From NCBI GenBank assembly GCA_013044385.1, contig JABEUN010000032.1, forward strand, positions 1 through 49,689: DNA of 49,689 bases, read 5' to 3'. Made by a program: the position numbers and the translations under genes. The notes below the pieces were generated by a model that was not told the DNA's origin, ran no database searches, and worked only from the letters and a program-made list of their open reading frames with translations. Source of the DNA: Acidimicrobiaceae bacterium (GTDB lineage: Bacteria > Actinomycetota > Acidimicrobiia > Acidimicrobiales > Acidimicrobiaceae). Position 1 is the stretch's first letter. Each line of letters begins with the position of its first letter. Shown here piece by piece: positions 8,629 through 15,025 of this stretch.

Positions 8629-8820
8629 ATGGCTTCGCTAACAGCACTTGCTGGTATTTTCGCCGCGCTCATAAATCTCGATGGACCTGGTCACTACTTA
8701 CATTGGGGCTTTATCGAGATCTCATACGGCAACCTTGCAGTCATTATCGTGCTCATCGTTCTATTTTTTGCGGCGGTTCTCGTGCCGTTCCCACACCACA
8801 AGGGAAGTGACCAGAAGTGA
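8629..8820 (+). CDS. small single-span membrane protein coupled to cytochrome b
   Basis: A 63-residue protein with one strong hydrophobic segment (about residues 32-53) after a short head containing His-Tyr-Leu-His-Trp-Gly-Phe-Ile, and ending VPFPHHKGSDQK. It has an excellent SD (AAGGAGGTGA), and its TGA overlaps the GTG of the cytochrome b gene (GTGA), so the two are translationally coupled. I recall similar small proteins beside comparable cytochrome b genes in other actinobacteria, but I know of no name or established function. A role as an accessory subunit of the quinol-oxidising complex is inference from coupling and size. Confidence 0.75.
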   Translation: MASLTALAGIFAALINLDGPGHYLHWGFIEISYGNLAVIIVLIVLFFAAVLVPFPHHKGSDQK

Positions 8821-10430
8821 CTATGACGCCAGTAGAGGAAGGTAGCCGTAGTAGGGACGAAGGCACCCCTAGCAAGATGGCCGGCCTACCGGAGGATGCC
8901 AGTCAATGGACGGCAAAGCTCAGGAGAAAGGCCCTCACATACCTGCCTCCTGAGAAGTTGATGCCAGATCGCCAGCCAGAGTACGTCTCCAGCTGGATCT
9001 ACGTATTCGGCGTACTTACATTATCGGCTTTCCTGGTAGTAGCAATCTCCGGCGCTCTGCTGGCGCTTGAGGGACCGTCATGGTGGCACGAATCCGGACT
9101 CGGACATTTCGTAAATTCGCTGCACCTTTGGAGTGTTGAACTCTTCTTCTTGTTCATGGTCGTCCATCTCTGGGGTAAGTTCTTCATGGCGGCTTGGAGA
9201 GGAAAGCGCTCTCTGACCTGGATCACCGGCGTACTCGCATTCCTCACTTCGGTAGGCGCAGCATTTACCGGATACGTCTCCCAGCAAAACTTTGACTCGC
9301 AGTGGATCTCCACTCAGGCGAAGGATGGCATGAATTCAATGGGGATCGGCGCATTCTTCAACGTGCTGAACTTTGGTCAGATGTTCATGTGGCACATACT
9401 GCTACTGCCACTCATCGTCCTTCTGATCGTTGGTGTGCACGTAATGCAGGTGCGGCTCCGTGGCGTCGTGCCGCCAATAAAGGCAAACAGCGATCCTATG
9501 GCGGACTCAAAGCCTTGGTCGGGAAAGTATCGCCCCTACGACATAATCAAGGAGTTCACGATCGGATTCGTTGTGGTTGCAATTGCGACACTACTGTTCT
9601 CTTTCGTATTCTCCTCTCCTGACATGGCACCAGTAACCATTAAGAGTTGGTCACACGCCGATCCGGTCGACTTCGTAACTACGGCAGCATCCGAGCTCGC
9701 CGGCACGTCTGCCACTGCGACGTATGGTGCACCATACAACAACGTGCCCGGAACCGGTCAAAAGCTCGGCCCCATATCAATTGAAAACGCTGTGGGTGTC
9801 CACATTCCGGTCAACCCGACAGTCGATTTCGTGCTCGCTCCACTATCCACGGTTCCAAACAATCCGGCCCTTACAACTGCAATCCAGACTTGGAAGTCGG
9901 CCAGTACGCAACAGCAGACAACCTGGATGGCCGCCTATGACAAGGCACTGAACAAAGCCAAGCAGACGGCAGGCGACTCGGTCAGTATGCCCAGTTCCAA
10001 TTCCGGACCGGTGCCAGAGTTAATGAATCAAGAGCTTGTAATGGCACAGTCAGGTGGACTAGACGGAGCGCTCGAGAGTTCCACCCAGTTCTACGGGACC
10101 AATTACACCAAGCCACTCCTATTCATCGCCGACGGTGGGTATCTTGCCAGTCTCGCTCAGGCAGACCACCTTACGGGCAGCCAATGGGGCATGATGAACG
10201 AGACTGGAAGCTATCCAGGACAGGCATGGTTGTGGCTTTACACGATGTGGTACCAGGTAAAGCCATATTCGACTTCGACCAACGCAGATGTTGAGGTCAT
10301 GGCTACCATGATCGTCCTGACCCTGGCTCTTGCCCTCGTCCCGTTCATACCCGGTCTACGTGCCATACCGGAAAAAGTTGGCATCTACAAGCTGATATGG
10401 AAGGACTACTACAGGAGTAACAAGTCGTAA
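8817..10430 (+). CDS. cytochrome b N-terminal domain protein with large extracytoplasmic insert
   Basis: A 537-residue membrane cytochrome b. Four transmembrane helices carry the four heme ligands His103, His117, His193 and His208. The pairs are separated by 13 and 14 intervening residues; 13 and 14 is the b6f-like pattern, 13 and 13 the bc1 pattern. After a fifth helix (about 245-268) comes an unusually long stretch of roughly 215 residues, probably outside the membrane, then a final helix (about 488-508) and a C-terminal PFIPGLRAIPEKVGIYKLIW like the end of cytochrome b/subunit IV. No Rieske protein or cytochrome c gene lies nearby. It probably takes part in quinol-linked electron transfer; the partner is unknown. 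GTG start, coupled to the upstream small gene. Confidence 0.88.
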   Translation: MTMTPVEEGSRSRDEGTPSKMAGLPEDASQWTAKLRRKALTYLPPEKLMPDRQPEYVSSWIYVFGVLTLSAFLVVAISGALLALEGPSWWHESGLGHFVNSLHLWSVELFFLFMVVHLWGKFFMAAWRGKRSLTWITGVLAFLTSVGAAFTGYVSQQNFDSQWISTQAKDGMNSMGIGAFFNVLNFGQMFMWHILLLPLIVLLIVGVHVMQVRLRGVVPPIKANSDPMADSKPWSGKYRPYDIIKEFTIGFVVVAIATLLFSFVFSSPDMAPVTIKSWSHADPVDFVTTAASELAGTSATATYGAPYNNVPGTGQKLGPISIENAVGVHIPVNPTVDFVLAPLSTVPNNPALTTAIQTWKSASTQQQTTWMAAYDKALNKAKQTAGDSVSMPSSNSGPVPELMNQELVMAQSGGLDGALESSTQFYGTNYTKPLLFIADGGYLASLAQADHLTGSQWGMMNETGSYPGQAWLWLYTMWYQVKPYSTSTNADVEVMATMIVLTLALALVPFIPGLRAIPEKVGIYKLIWKDYYRSNKS

Positions 10431-10449
10431 TTCCTGTCAGAAATGGAGA

Positions 10450-10487
10450 GAGGCACCCCCAGTGTTTGGGGGTGCCTCTTCTTTTTT
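10450..10487 (+). terminator. rho-independent terminator after cytochrome b
   Basis: A perfect 12-base-pair stem (10450-10461 with 10467-10478) with a five-base loop is followed by TTC and six T. It lies 20 bases after the cytochrome b stop and closes the two-gene operon. Confidence 0.95.
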
Positions 10488-11144: not shown

Positions 11145-12752
11145 CTATTTCGCCTCGCCTTGCCCCGCCAATCGTACAAGTCCAAGGACAATGGAGTCCA
11201 CAAGGGCATGCCACGACGCCTCAATGATGTTGGGCGAGACTCCCATCGTCGCCCAGCTCTCCGAGCCGTCAGTCGAGTCGAGCAGTACGCGCACTGCGGC
11301 ACCAGTTCCAAGGGTGGAGTCCAATACCCTGACCCGGAAGTCTGTGAGGTGCATGTTCGCAAGGCCTTCGAAGTGAGGTACCAATGCCTTACGTAACGCA
11401 CCATCGAGTGCGTTCACCGGGCCATTTCCTTCTGCTGTGGCTATCACTCGGCTTCCGTCAACAAGAACCTTCACAGTCGCCTCCGTGACAGCGTCACCAC
11501 CCTCCCGGTAGTCGGTCATAACTCTGAACGACTCGAGTGTGAAATACTGCTGGCTCCAACCAGTCGCTGACCTCATTAGTAGCTCAAGCGAGCCATCTGC
11601 AGCCTCAAAGTGATAACCCTTATATTCGAGCTCCTTCAGGTGATCTAGAACTCTTTTGACCTCGTCACCTTCGAGTGAAAGGCCAAGCTCTTCGGCCTTG
11701 ACAGCTACTGACTGCCTTCCTGCCATCTCGGAAACTACGTAGCGCGTTCCATTTCCAACTTCTGCGGGATCGATGTGTTCGTAAGCGTCTTTCTTCCGTG
11801 CAAGTGCGGAGACGTGGAGCCCTGCCTTGTGCGCGAACGCAGAGTGTCCAACGTAAGGAGCCTGTGGATTCGGCGGGACATTGACAATCTCCGCAATGTG
11901 CCTCGAAACGGAACTGAGAATACGAATTCTCTCCCTCGGTATCGTCTGAACGCCCATTTTCAAACTCAGATTGGGAATCGTCGTCGAGAGGTCGGCGTTG
12001 CCAGTCCTTTCGCCGTATCCATTGACACAACCTTGGACCTGGGTGACGCCCATTCTCACCGCCGTCACCGAGTTCGCTACCGCACATCCTGAGTCATTGT
12101 GGAAGTGCACACCGAGCTGAACGGAGAAGTGGTCGCGGAGTTCGCCGATAATCTCTTCAACTTCGAAAGGGAGCGTACCGCCGTTAGTATCGCACATCAC
12201 CAATGAGGTTGCACCAGCGTCTTGCGCTGCCAACATTATGCGACGTGCGTACTCCGGGTTTGCCTTATACCCATCGAAGAAGTGCTCAGCATCCAAAAAC
12301 ACTTTCCGACCGCTTGAAACCAGGTACTTAACGGAATCGCTTACCATCTTGGCACCCTCGTCGAGGGTGGTCCGCAATGCTTCGACTACGTGGTAGTCCC
12401 AAGATTTCGCGACGATACACACAGTTTCAGTCTCTGCGTTCACCAACGCCCTCAGAACAGGGTCGGTACTAGTCTCGGAACTCGGTCTGCGAGTGGACCC
12501 GAAAGCTACTAGCTCGGCCGTAGTCAGATTCAACTCCTTTGGAGCTCGCCTGAAGAACTCCTCATCCTTCGGGTTCGCCCCCGGCCAACCTCCCTCGATA
12601 TAGGTAACACCTAGTAGGTCCAGCTGTTGAGCTACACGCAACTTGTCATCTACGGTTAGGGAAAGCCCTTCCTGTTGGGACCCGTCCCTGAGCGTCGTAT
12701 CGTAAACCTCAACGAACTCGGGCAGGACCCCTACTGGAAGATCAGATGACAT
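11145..12752 (-). CDS. cimA: (R)-citramalate synthase
   Basis: A 535-residue enzyme of the isopropylmalate/homocitrate/citramalate synthase family. It condenses acetyl-CoA with pyruvate to citramalate, the first step of the threonine-independent route to isoleucine. Seen: YDTTLRDGSQQEG at residues 17-29, the metal-binding His216 and His218 followed by Asn-Asp, GCVNGYGERTGNADL, and a C-terminal LeuA-type regulatory dimer domain (about 395-530). The IEGGWPGANPKDEEFF segment is the form found in the CimA group rather than in LeuA; a separate LeuA is present at 34164. The ATG at 12752 overlaps the ilvE end by 11 bases, indicating coupling. Feedback inhibition by isoleucine is expected from the family but not seen here. 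Confidence 0.9.
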   Translation of the reverse strand: MSSDLPVGVLPEFVEVYDTTLRDGSQQEGLSLTVDDKLRVAQQLDLLGVTYIEGGWPGANPKDEEFFRRAPKELNLTTAELVAFGSTRRPSSETSTDPVLRALVNAETETVCIVAKSWDYHVVEALRTTLDEGAKMVSDSVKYLVSSGRKVFLDAEHFFDGYKANPEYARRIMLAAQDAGATSLVMCDTNGGTLPFEVEEIIGELRDHFSVQLGVHFHNDSGCAVANSVTAVRMGVTQVQGCVNGYGERTGNADLSTTIPNLSLKMGVQTIPRERIRILSSVSRHIAEIVNVPPNPQAPYVGHSAFAHKAGLHVSALARKKDAYEHIDPAEVGNGTRYVVSEMAGRQSVAVKAEELGLSLEGDEVKRVLDHLKELEYKGYHFEAADGSLELLMRSATGWSQQYFTLESFRVMTDYREGGDAVTEATVKVLVDGSRVIATAEGNGPVNALDGALRKALVPHFEGLANMHLTDFRVRVLDSTLGTGAAVRVLLDSTDGSESWATMGVSPNIIEASWHALVDSIVLGLVRLAGQGEAK

Positions 12753-13665
12753 GGTCGAGCCAGGCTTTGTACTTCGGTGCCCTTCCCCTGACCGCGTCGA
12801 AGTACACGGACTGTATCGCCTTTGTAATCTCACCCGGTCGACCCTGGCCAACCTTCCGGTCATCGACCGACGCAACTGGCACCACCTCGGCCGCTGTTCC
12901 GGTGAGAAACATCTCGTCGGAGAGGTAGAGGTCTGACCTGAGCAAGTTCTCCTCCACAACCTTCACGCCAAGGTCACTTGCAATTTCCATGATCGCAGAT
13001 CGGGTTATCCCCTCTAAAGCCCCAGCCGAGGTGGGAGGTGTAATCAATTTCCCGTTCCTGTAGACGAATATGTTCTCTCCAGTGCACTCAGATACAACTC
13101 CGCTTGAGGAGAGAATGATCGCCTCATCGTACCCAGACTTGACCGCCTCCACCTTTGCAAGCGAAGAGTTGACATACATACCTGTGCATTTTGCCGCTGG
13201 AGGGACCGAGTTGGGATCGTGCCTCTGCCAGGAGCTGATCTTGACCCGAATTCCATTTGCAATACCGTCGTCACCTAAGTATGCACCCCACGGCCATGCT
13301 GCAATGGCGACATTAACCTCACAGTTGAGAGGATTTAGGCCCATCTCGCCGTAACCGAGGTAGGCGATCGGCCTAAGGTAGCAGGAGTCGAGTTCGTTCA
13401 CCTTGACGACCGATTTGGTCGCCTCAACCAGTTCTTCTGGTGAGAATGGAATCTCCATCATTAGGATTTTGGCAGATAGGAACAGTCTGTCGATATGCTC
13501 CTTAAGCCTGAACACGGCCGGGCCGGAATCCGTTGGATAAGCCCGTATACCTTCAAACACACCCGAGCCGTAATGGAGTCCGTGGGTGAGCACGTGAATC
13601 TGGGCATCCGCCCAATTCACCATCTCCCCGTCCATCCAGATCTTGTTAGTTGTAGTGATTGGCAT
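12742..13665 (-). CDS. ilvE: branched-chain amino acid aminotransferase
   Basis: A class IV PLP aminotransferase of 307 residues, the standard IlvE length. It interconverts Leu, Ile and Val with their 2-oxo acids. Seen: HGLHYGSGVFEGIRAY at residues 28-43, the PLP-binding Lys159 in AAKCTGMYVNSSLAK, and SECTGENIFVYRNG, typical of the fold. I chose the ATG at 13665, with AAAGGG upstream and only one base after the leuB stop; the frame stays open upstream within leuB and is not used. It lies between leuB and cimA, so one transcript would supply the last step of all three branched-chain pathways. Confidence 0.95.
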   Translation of the reverse strand: MPITTTNKIWMDGEMVNWADAQIHVLTHGLHYGSGVFEGIRAYPTDSGPAVFRLKEHIDRLFLSAKILMMEIPFSPEELVEATKSVVKVNELDSCYLRPIAYLGYGEMGLNPLNCEVNVAIAAWPWGAYLGDDGIANGIRVKISSWQRHDPNSVPPAAKCTGMYVNSSLAKVEAVKSGYDEAIILSSSGVVSECTGENIFVYRNGKLITPPTSAGALEGITRSAIMEIASDLGVKVVEENLLRSDLYLSDEMFLTGTAAEVVPVASVDDRKVGQGRPGEITKAIQSVYFDAVRGRAPKYKAWLDHVI

Positions 13666-13666
13666 C

Positions 13667-14683
13667 TCAAACCCTTTCTGCGTAGAAGTCGCCAATTGCC
13701 GACGTAGACATGCCCGCTGGTGGTGGAATTTCCAGGGCCTTATTGATCGACTGAGCTGCGTCCACCTCGCCGAGGAAGTCGAGCATGAGCGCAGCTGAAC
13801 GTATCGCTGCAATCGGATTCGCTCTACCCGTACCCACTATGTCATGAGCCGCTCCGTGTACGGGTTCGAAAAGCGATGGGCCGGTTCTGTTCAGATTCAG
13901 GTTCGCCGAAGCCGCTAGGCCAATTCCGCCTGATACCGCACCGGCAAGGTCAGTGATAATGTCACCGAATAGGTTGTCCGTCACGATGACGTCATATCGG
14001 GCCGGGTTTTCAACCATGTAGATACAAGATGCATCGACGTGATTGTACGCCACCTCAACCTGAGAATACTCTGCACCAACCTCTTCGAAAGTACGAGACC
14101 AGAGGTCCCCCGAGAAGGTAAGTACGTTGGTCTTGTGCACCAAGGTAAGGTGTTTTCTTTCTCGCTTGGACGCTAGGTCATACGCGTACCTCACGACCCT
14201 TTCGACACCGAAACGTGTATTCACCGACCCCTGGGTCGCTACCTCTTGAGAAGTGCCTTTCCGGAGGAATCCGCCTTCTCCCGCATAGGTGCCTTCCGTA
14301 TTCTCTCGGATTACCACCATGTCGACACGTTTCTCTGGTGAAAGTTCAATATCAGAAGGAGATATGAAAGGGCGGTGATTTACATAGAGGTCGAGGTCGA
14401 ACCTTAGCTTCAGCAGTAATCCTCTCTCCAGGACACCTGACGGCACCTCCTTGGATCCGATAGCGGGACCAATCGCCCCAAGGACTATCGCTTCAAAACC
14501 CTTCAGCTCCTGAAGTACGCCATCAGGCAGGACTTCTCCAGTATTCACGTAATGCGCTGCGCCGAGTTCGTACTCGACAGTCTCAAGCTTGACTCCAGTA
14601 GACCTTGCGACCTTCAAAGCTTCGAAACTAACCTCGGGACCAATGCCATCTCCTCCGATGACTGCGATCCGATGCCCGCCCAC
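13667..14683 (-). CDS. leuB: 3-isopropylmalate dehydrogenase
   Basis: NAD-dependent decarboxylating dehydrogenase of about 338 residues, for leucine synthesis and, with citramalate-derived substrate, isoleucine synthesis. Seen: [13 protein letters not shown] at the N-terminus, [16 protein letters not shown], and the metal-site signature [12 protein letters not shown] with [22 protein letters not shown] chose the GTG at 14683 because GGGGGT lies five bases before it; a TTG at 14695 is possible. It is the first gene after the attenuator at 14773-14832, followed at once by ilvE. Confidence 0.93.
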
Positions 14684-14772: not shown

Positions 14773-14832
14773 AAAATAAAAAGACCGCCCACAGATGTGG
14801 TCGGTCAGATGCTCACACCAGATCGGTGTGAG
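14773..14832 (-). terminator. transcription attenuator upstream of leuB (hairpins 1:2, 2:3 and 3:4)
   Basis: In transcript order (minus strand), the leader stop is followed immediately by a perfect eight-base hairpin CTCACACC/GGTGTGAG (14812-14832). Next comes a terminator hairpin, GACCGACCACA pairing 10 of 11 with TGTGGGCGGTC (14783-14806), followed by TTTTTATTTT. The antiterminator is also visible: GATCTGGT (14817-14824) can pair 7 of 8 with ACCACATC (14794-14801), joining the second arm of hairpin 1 to the first arm of the terminator. A ribosome stalled on the Val/Ile codons would cover the first arm and favour the antiterminator, so shortage of Val/Ile should turn on leuB-ilvE-cimA. Confidence 0.85.
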
Positions 14833-14880
14833 CTACCCAATAGCTACTACGACTGCTGAATGCGGCGTGAAGTTTTTCAT
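14833..14880 (-). CDS. branched-chain leader peptide MKNFTPHSAVVVAIG
   Basis: A 15-codon ORF whose codons 10-14 encode Val-Val-Val-Ala-Ile, ending at TAG exactly where the attenuator hairpins begin. That coupling of regulatory codons and structure is the hallmark of ribosome-mediated attenuation. No SD precedes the ATG. TAGCTT and TTAACT lie 6-16 bases upstream and could be a -10 element of a leaderless transcript. The peptide itself is not expected to have a function. Confidence 0.8.
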   Translation of the reverse strand: MKNFTPHSAVVVAIG

Positions 14881-15025
14881 TCGACTAGTTAAGCTAGCGG
14901 CGCTGCGGAACGATCTGGCACTCTTGCACAATTCAAGCCTCTCAATGATACAAACCAAGGTCCAACAGACCGAGAACCCGATAGCCGGTCTGCCGGGGTC
15001 AACAACGTGACTAACTTAGATACCC

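Follow-up and report, generated by a model that had tools for sequence, protein, structure and literature searches.

The 49,689-nucleotide stretch of Acidimicrobiaceae DNA analysed here (the window) carries, in front of a leuB-ilvE-cimA gene cluster, a short open reading frame with valine and isoleucine codons followed by two hairpins. This raises the question of whether the element senses the supply of these amino acids and, if so, how the position of the translating ribosome would decide between termination and read-through. All parts lie on the minus strand. The leader ORF, MKNFTPHSAVVVAIG, comprises 15 codons and a TAG stop (14833..14880), a length shared by 4 other same-genus genomes, and V/I-rich endings recur in its relatives; the control codons GTC GTA GTA (GCT) ATT, encoding Val-Val-Val-Ala-Ile, occupy 14839..14853. 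The first hairpin, P1 (GCTCACACCG-ATC-TGGTGTGAGC, 14811..14833), begins with the final base of the leader stop. A 4-nt spacer (14807..14810) separates it from an intrinsic terminator (GACCGACCAC-ATCT-GTGGGCGGTC, then TTTTTATTTT; 14773..14806) that has closely similar counterparts in relatives. Downstream follow leuB (3-isopropylmalate dehydrogenase, GTG start, 13667..14683; NF002898, 465 bits, cut-off 393), ilvE (branched-chain aminotransferase, ORF as listed 12742..13812; TIGR01122, 442 bits, cut-off 246) and cimA (citramalate synthase, ORF as listed 11145..12959; TIGR00977, 686 bits, cut-off 450), in this order and each above its curated NCBIfam cut-off. As listed, the ilvE ORF matches its profile only from about residue 54 and the cimA ORF from residue 83.

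The first-pass annotation, made from the letters of the sequence, had described a 15-codon leader with Val-Val-Val-Ala-Ile, a hairpin right after its stop and a terminator hairpin with a T-tract. All three are present: the leader at 14880-14833 (minus strand), the hairpin starting at the stop codon itself, and the T-tract ending at 14773. It had also proposed RNA folding as a check, and the 111-nt stretch reached -38.1 kcal/mol against a shuffle mean of -27.7 (z -3.42), beating 200/200 dinucleotide shuffles. Within the Rfam library searched, no family scored at or above its gathering score at the locus, the best sub-threshold match, Hrs13, reaching 19 bits where its gathering score is 52.

Leader DNA was recognisable in 4/4 other same-genus genomes searched; matches were obtained in 8 genomes, that of G057 (L008) lying, by eye, in unrelated coding sequence. 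The terminator pattern occurred in 46 of 99 distinct leuB upstreams, one of them (L060) false, and after removal of duplicates and of this regular-expression mismatch a leader ORF ending beside P1 was found in all 45 true cases. Dropping leaders more than 95% alike reduced these 45 to an alignment of 37, the window included, in which the Ile codon aligns with at least 90% identity at its first and second bases. Over P1 and the terminator, 94.9% of the cells of these 37 leaders were paired compared to 82.3% after shuffling, and the covariation score was 0.456 compared to 0.231 (structures slid along the alignment scored at most 0.151). Changes on both sides were seen in 9/9 modelled pairs of P1, and 4/8 terminator pairs were invariant. 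Alignment of relatives for compensatory changes in three stems, another proposed check, thus bore out two of them: P1 and the terminator covary, and the third, the pairing of the second arm of P1 with the first arm of the terminator (2:3 pairing), is absent from the top covarying pairs.

A covariance model trained on the 37 leaders matched 92 of the 148 genomes of the order and left 56 without a match, the downstream gene having been checked for only part of the 92. Citramalate synthase matched in 127 of the 148, so that the element is not universal with cimA in the order. Directly downstream of 38 model loci that were checked (the window and an ilvB locus of its own genome included) lie leuB in 31 cases, cimA in 3 and ilvB in 2; of the two left, L145 ends 111 nt downstream and L155 (genome G311) is weak and probably false. 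A phylum-wide draw gave matches in 9 of 149 genomes: 5 from the same order, own genome included, 2 from the same class and 2 others. One locus from another class (L153, genome G220) has leuB-ilvE, a leader ending in V-V-I-I-R before its stop and a different terminator sequence, and hence the layout exists outside the class. The leader before leuB-ilvE-cimA is real and common to many related bacteria; locus L016 of a cultured relative, Acidithrix ferrooxidans, has it too.

The position of the element differs among relatives. Among 80 named leuB loci, 24 of which contributed to the 37 training leaders, 28 have the model match directly upstream of leuB and 35 directly upstream of cimA, none of the latter having been used for training. 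The other 17 comprise one match cut by a contig end and 16 loci without a match, 10 of them truncated; altogether the element is found in 64/80 loci, plus the window. In the cimA-type loci leuB-ilvE lies upstream and is without the element. At first sight, these 35 loci show what the first-pass annotation had named as evidence against its claim, namely relatives that keep leuB and lose both the codons and the stems; in them, the element precedes cimA instead. In 6/80 loci (L014, L017, L043, L055, L074 and L080) the upstream regions of both leuB and cimA could be seen and the element is really lacking at both. Several cimA-type loci of this set (e.g. L025, L031 and L049) have 1-2 kb between ilvE and cimA.

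The genomes of the order also yielded a weaker second model match with the same layout as the leuB-type leaders. In the window's own genome (G000) this sister element lies at C92:18349-18431 on the plus strand (L157), before ilvB, and encodes the leader MAFSARLIVVLGM; its terminator type, GACCTCCC/GGGAGGTC, differs from that of the leuB-type. The IlvB start could be read directly in 17/20 second-match loci. The ilvB set leaves out L171 and L176 (the latter a leuB), and L159 was kept by its terminator type, its IlvB frame not being seen.

We then compared the control codons of the three types, using for the cimA-type 29 of the 35 loci as input (near-identical ones were omitted); for 3 of 81 leaders more than one stop came into question, and the script settled on the one giving the higher V/I/L content. 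At their end, most cimA-type leaders have three or four consecutive Ile. Counted over the last six codons, the leuB-type leaders have Val at 50 and Ile at 79 of 216 positions, the cimA-type Ile at 108 and Val at 2 of 168, and the ilvB-type Val at 37, Leu at 26 and Ile at 14 of 102. The Val counts of the leuB-type and cimA-type positions differ with Fisher p 7e-12, the related sequences not being independent. At least one Val is present in 35/36 leuB-type compared to 2/28 cimA-type leaders, and at least one Leu in 17/17 ilvB-type, 9/36 leuB-type and 4/28 cimA-type leaders; at least three V/I/L codons are found in 32/36 leuB-type, 28/28 cimA-type and 17/17 ilvB-type leaders. Control codons therefore follow the genes: Val plus Ile before the leuB operon, Ile-Ile-Ile-Ile with almost no Val before cimA, and Leu plus Val before ilvB. 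L147, a leuB-cimA operon without ilvE, has an Ile-only leader, which suggests that Val codons go with ilvE. Among the Val control codons GTA prevails (41/50 in leuB-type and 27/37 in ilvB-type leaders), and by eye this holds for GC-rich leaders too, which hints at selection in favour of a single tRNA-Val.

This shift of codons with the downstream genes amounts to a natural experiment, in which cimA alone goes with Ile runs, Val appears when ilvE is in the operon, and ilvB goes with Leu and Val. It is the strongest evidence that the ORF would sense amino acids, and strong evidence for attenuation in which isoleucine would be the signal for cimA. The element thus very probably works like a leader-peptide attenuator, and we put at roughly 80% the probability that it is a ribosome-controlled transcription attenuator reading isoleucine (and valine) supply before leuB-ilvE-cimA. 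The first-pass annotation had proposed just such Val/Ile-sensing attenuation, reasoning that it made sense for isoleucine supply, and on this point the 35/80 loci with the element directly before cimA and their Ile-run leaders agree with it. That the element is instead non-regulatory, a chance ORF before the ordinary terminator of an upstream transcript, is highly improbable: immediately upstream there is no gene in the same direction, greA being divergent with leuC beyond it, and conservation, covariation and codon tracking already contradict it.

A likely -10 box, TAGCTT, lies at 14891..14896 (minus strand), 10 nt before the leader ATG. It matches TATAAT at 3/6 bases and no good -35 is seen by eye; judged by consensus, this promoter is weak. 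Across the leaders, a -10-like hexamer with A2 and T6 stands 5-11 nt before the start in 31/36 leuB-type, 17/28 cimA-type and 17/17 ilvB-type cases, in total 65/81 compared to a frequency of 0.23 at random positions, counts that lean upward because the script's choice of start partly used the box. SD-like motifs were found in 3 leuB-type, 5 cimA-type and 3 ilvB-type leaders (11/81, random 0.10). The position of the -10 box suggests that the leader mRNA may be leaderless or nearly so. Passages on Corynebacterium glutamicum ilvBNC describe a leaderless leader peptide, transcription starting one nucleotide from the leader start codon (PMC11857589), and those on Streptomyces lividans describe leaderless Leu/Trp/Ile leader peptides before amino-acid genes, with a TAnnnT -10 box about 6 nt before the start site (PMC8079986), a leaderless start like the one proposed here.

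If the element is such an attenuator, with charged tRNA-Ile/Val plentiful the ribosome would probably reach the stop codon and transcription would end at the terminator; with these tRNAs short, the ribosome would stall on the control codons and RNA polymerase would read through. How the ribosome would be coupled to the terminator is a further question. In the classical trp/ilv scheme P1 would be the 1:2 anti-antiterminator, a stalled ribosome would cover region 1, and region 2 would pair with the first arm of the terminator. Such a scheme has points in its favour, as the parts stand in the classical order and include a codon-rich leader ORF, an intrinsic terminator and a structurally conserved first hairpin. 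The first-pass annotation had seen a full fit to trp/ilv/leu logic, with a 7-of-8 antiterminator. With the register checked by eye, the 2:3 pairing in the window consists of 6 contiguous pairs (one of them G-U) and one isolated pair, and some high-GC leaders do allow about 7/8 pairs by eye. When the P1 stem was permuted, the pairing in the window ranked at 0.80 of the shuffles (0.425 with strand flips), that is, at chance level, and the 7-of-8 antiterminator was not upheld.

The same permutation gave no better result with other leaders. Among the 37, the median rank was 0.73 with 0 below 0.1 (0.445 with flips, 2 below 0.1), and among 30 more it was 0.59 with 0 below 0.05 (0.39 with flips); 3 of the 30 repeat the first set, and the two together cover 64 distinct leuB leaders, the window included. 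The 2:3 complementarity was thus no better than that of permuted stems. We also compared the upstream RNA with the first arm of the terminator against dinucleotide shuffles. Significant complementarity was obtained in 0/34 leuB-type, 1/25 cimA-type and 0/17 ilvB-type leaders, compared to 4/6 E. coli attenuators with p<0.05. These six E. coli leaders are positive controls for this assay and not for the P1-stem permutation, and the assay misses some real attenuators (trpL p 0.205, hisL p 0.08). Region 2 alone against the terminator arm gave p<0.05 in 5/25 cimA-type leaders (median p 0.16), which favours the classical scheme and is a weak hint against P1 itself being the switch. Mutual information over the 37 leaders revealed no 2:3 covariation among the top pairs, and P1 is similar in many leuB-, cimA- and ilvB-type leaders, the terminators of which differ. 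In ensemble folding the terminator of the window had P = 0.98 with P1 present or masked, and over the leaders the mean P(terminator) was 0.87-1.00 at every ribosome position.

On the permutations, the dinucleotide shuffles and the mutual information, the 2:3 antiterminator was rejected as unsupported, not as disproved. A 1:4-type pairing of the upstream RNA with the 3' arm of the terminator was likewise rejected (significant in 1/34, 1/25 and 1/17). Column pair 32-72, joining P1 arm 1 to an odd terminator position, is complementary in 37/37 rows; as a solitary pair that by eye tracks two clades, it was treated as phylogenetic. The script gave no hairpin decomposition for L088, L084 and L160, and L009, L113, L056, L061 and L086 were mis-decomposed; these five were left out of the structure tests and kept in the codon counts.

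We next placed the ribosome on the leaders, setting its edge at a distance of 12 nt from the A-site codon, counted from the first base of that codon. With the first control codon in the A site, P1 starts 4, 5 and 7 nt past the ribosome edge (medians for leuB-, cimA- and ilvB-type) and is free in 33/34, 25/25 and 17/17 leaders, respectively (75/76). With the last control codon in the A site the ribosome invades P1 by 4 nt (median), partly masking it in 76/76, and at the stop codon about 10 nt (median) of the P1 5' arm are masked. The first hairpin is therefore masked by a ribosome at the stop and not by one at the first control codon, and the control codons lie outside region 1, which, with no antiterminator detectable, runs counter to the claimed full fit to trp/ilv/leu logic. 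A ribosome halted at the last control codon does reach into P1, as the classical scheme would have it. Because the two defining features that were tested, masking of region 1 and a 2:3 antiterminator, were not found, we did not file the element as classical trp-type, and we regard that scheme as unlikely.

Distances to the terminator point to another arrangement. From the stop codon it lies 28, 26 and 28 nt away (medians for leuB-, cimA- and ilvB-type; 26 in the window), and from the first control codon 44, 42 and 45 nt by sequence (44 in the window); with P1 folded, 16, 15 and 17 nt of the latter stay unpaired (window: 21). P1 is separated from the terminator by a median of 2-3 nt across the three types (range 0-6). 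According to passages of PMC4824070, no antiterminator is needed in E. coli for a terminator to be repressed when a ribosome comes within about 27 nt of it. This threshold was obtained with a single E. coli terminator, and one of the constructs gave termination of about 0.8 with a distance of 18 nt. The stop codon is at least 27 nt from the terminator in 47/76 leaders and below 27 nt in 29/76, the window included; the P1-folded distance is below 27 nt in 76/76. Given this geometry and ribosome-proximity repression in E. coli, P1 is proposed as the switch. With a ribosome at the stop, the P1 5' arm would be covered and the gap to the terminator would be about 26-28 nt, roughly what the terminator needs for folding. 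In front of a stalled ribosome P1 would be free, and its folding would reduce the single strand between ribosome and terminator to some 15-17 nt (window: 21), such that ribosome and P1 together may hamper the terminator as it closes inside the exit channel of the polymerase. It is a tentative possibility that P1, rather than 2:3 pairing, carries the switch, and we hold with the same reserve that the element might be an attenuator without antiterminator, in which P1, abutting both the leader stop and the terminator, would act as a distance switch. A stall at the last codon, invading P1 by about 4 nt, would blur such a switch, and P1 could refold after release of the ribosome from the stop codon. 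Loss of the leader start codon separates the two models by opposite predictions, since only with P1 as the switch, and not in the classical model, is higher read-through expected on loss of leader translation.

Two other roles of P1 have to be weighed. In the two-state attenuator proposed for Mycobacterium tuberculosis ilvB1, P1 would be the antiterminator, excluded by pairing or overlap with the terminator. The ribosome geometry fits such a device, the codon set resembles LVVI, and P1 abuts the extended terminator stem at 0 nt in 11/76 leaders (5/34, 2/25 and 4/17). Against it, P1 and the terminator, as decomposed, share no bases, and both hairpins fold together, with a mean P(terminator) of 0.93-1.00 when P1 is free; we consider it improbable, to the same degree as the classical scheme. 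Somewhat less probable still is that P1 serves only as a polymerase pause or as an mRNA-protecting hairpin, the control codons acting via coupling or another factor (e.g. NusA/NusG). In its favour, the structure of P1 is conserved and not tuned to the terminator; against it, the distances from the stop to P1 and to the terminator are tight, which points to P1 acting mechanically and directly.

Known leaders share parts of this layout. Those of actinobacterial ilvB genes, as described in passages of Seliverstov 2005 (PMC1262725), PMC10272879, PMC11857589 and PMC13236596, likewise have an ORF rich in branched-chain amino acid codons, one or more hairpins and an intrinsic terminator. The ilvB-II motif is one such actinobacterial leader-peptide element, and the ilvB-OMG and ilvB motifs also have such uORFs before ilvB (passages of PMC10272879). 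Unlike these leaders, the element studied here stands in Acidimicrobiia before leuB-ilvE-cimA or cimA alone, Ile is its common codon, and P1 adjoins both the stop codon and the terminator with no terminator overlap. For M. tuberculosis ilvB1, an attenuation model with LVVI codons has been published (passages of PMC13236596). It shares the V/L/I codons just before the stop and the terminator downstream, and in it the antiterminator hairpin would be covered once the ribosome sits at the stop; the geometry of P1 would fit this, but by base pairing P1 and the terminator are not mutually exclusive. With the E. coli thr, trp, leu, ilv, his and phe attenuators the element has in common control codons, a proposed ribosome-stalling logic and a terminator. 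Their 2:3 complementarity is strong (4/6 p<0.05) and their control codons lie within the first hairpin, whereas here no such complementarity is detectable and the control codons lie upstream of P1. In passages of PMC4824070, on the tR2 terminator and the pyrBI attenuator cited there, a nearby ribosome blocks the terminator without an antiterminator. At tR2 it is the ribosome at or near the stop that blocks termination, and slower translation reportedly raises it; in contrast, hairpin folding would here bring the stalled ribosome, although it stands farther upstream, nearer to the terminator than one at the stop.

The targets appear to differ as well. In S. lividans they are leuA, leuS, trpE, trpS, ilvBHC, alaS, thrS and metNIQ, with no occurrence of leuB in the leader-peptide text of PMC8079986, and the passages of PMC1262725, PMC10272879, PMC11857589 and PMC13236596 contain no leuB or cimA leaders. 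Among the literature matches listed, none reported a leader of leuB or cimA from Acidimicrobiia. The layout groups the element with actinobacterial branched-chain amino acid leaders, with leuB-operon and cimA targets that were not found described among those matches, and it would provide dedicated RNA control for the citramalate route of isoleucine synthesis in Acidimicrobiia. An earlier Streptomyces codon-substitution result, cited in a passage of PMC1262725, is at odds with the classical scheme. The opposite predictions given above would make testable the problem posed by actinobacterial attenuator-like leaders, some of which lack classical components.

Similar layouts were seen more widely before ilvB. 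A phylum-wide draw supplied 29 ilvB upstreams. Filtering them for ORFs with a V/L/I-rich end retained 12, compared to 2.1 expected from shuffles and 2 on the reverse strand. By eye, tandem hairpins begin at the stop in 11 of these 12 (L212 is without), which corresponds to 3/3 ilvB upstreams from the same class (L184, L185 and L191) and 8/26 from outside it (L188, L194, L195, L196, L198, L204, L205 and L206). If P1 does act as a distance switch, these ilvB layouts in other classes would suggest a widespread actinobacterial design. Elsewhere in the window, a strong terminator-like hairpin of 15 pairs with a T-tract (10448-10480, plus strand) directly follows a cytochrome b-like ORF (8817-10430), and two tRNA genes lie at 2328-2400 and 2507-2578 on the minus strand.
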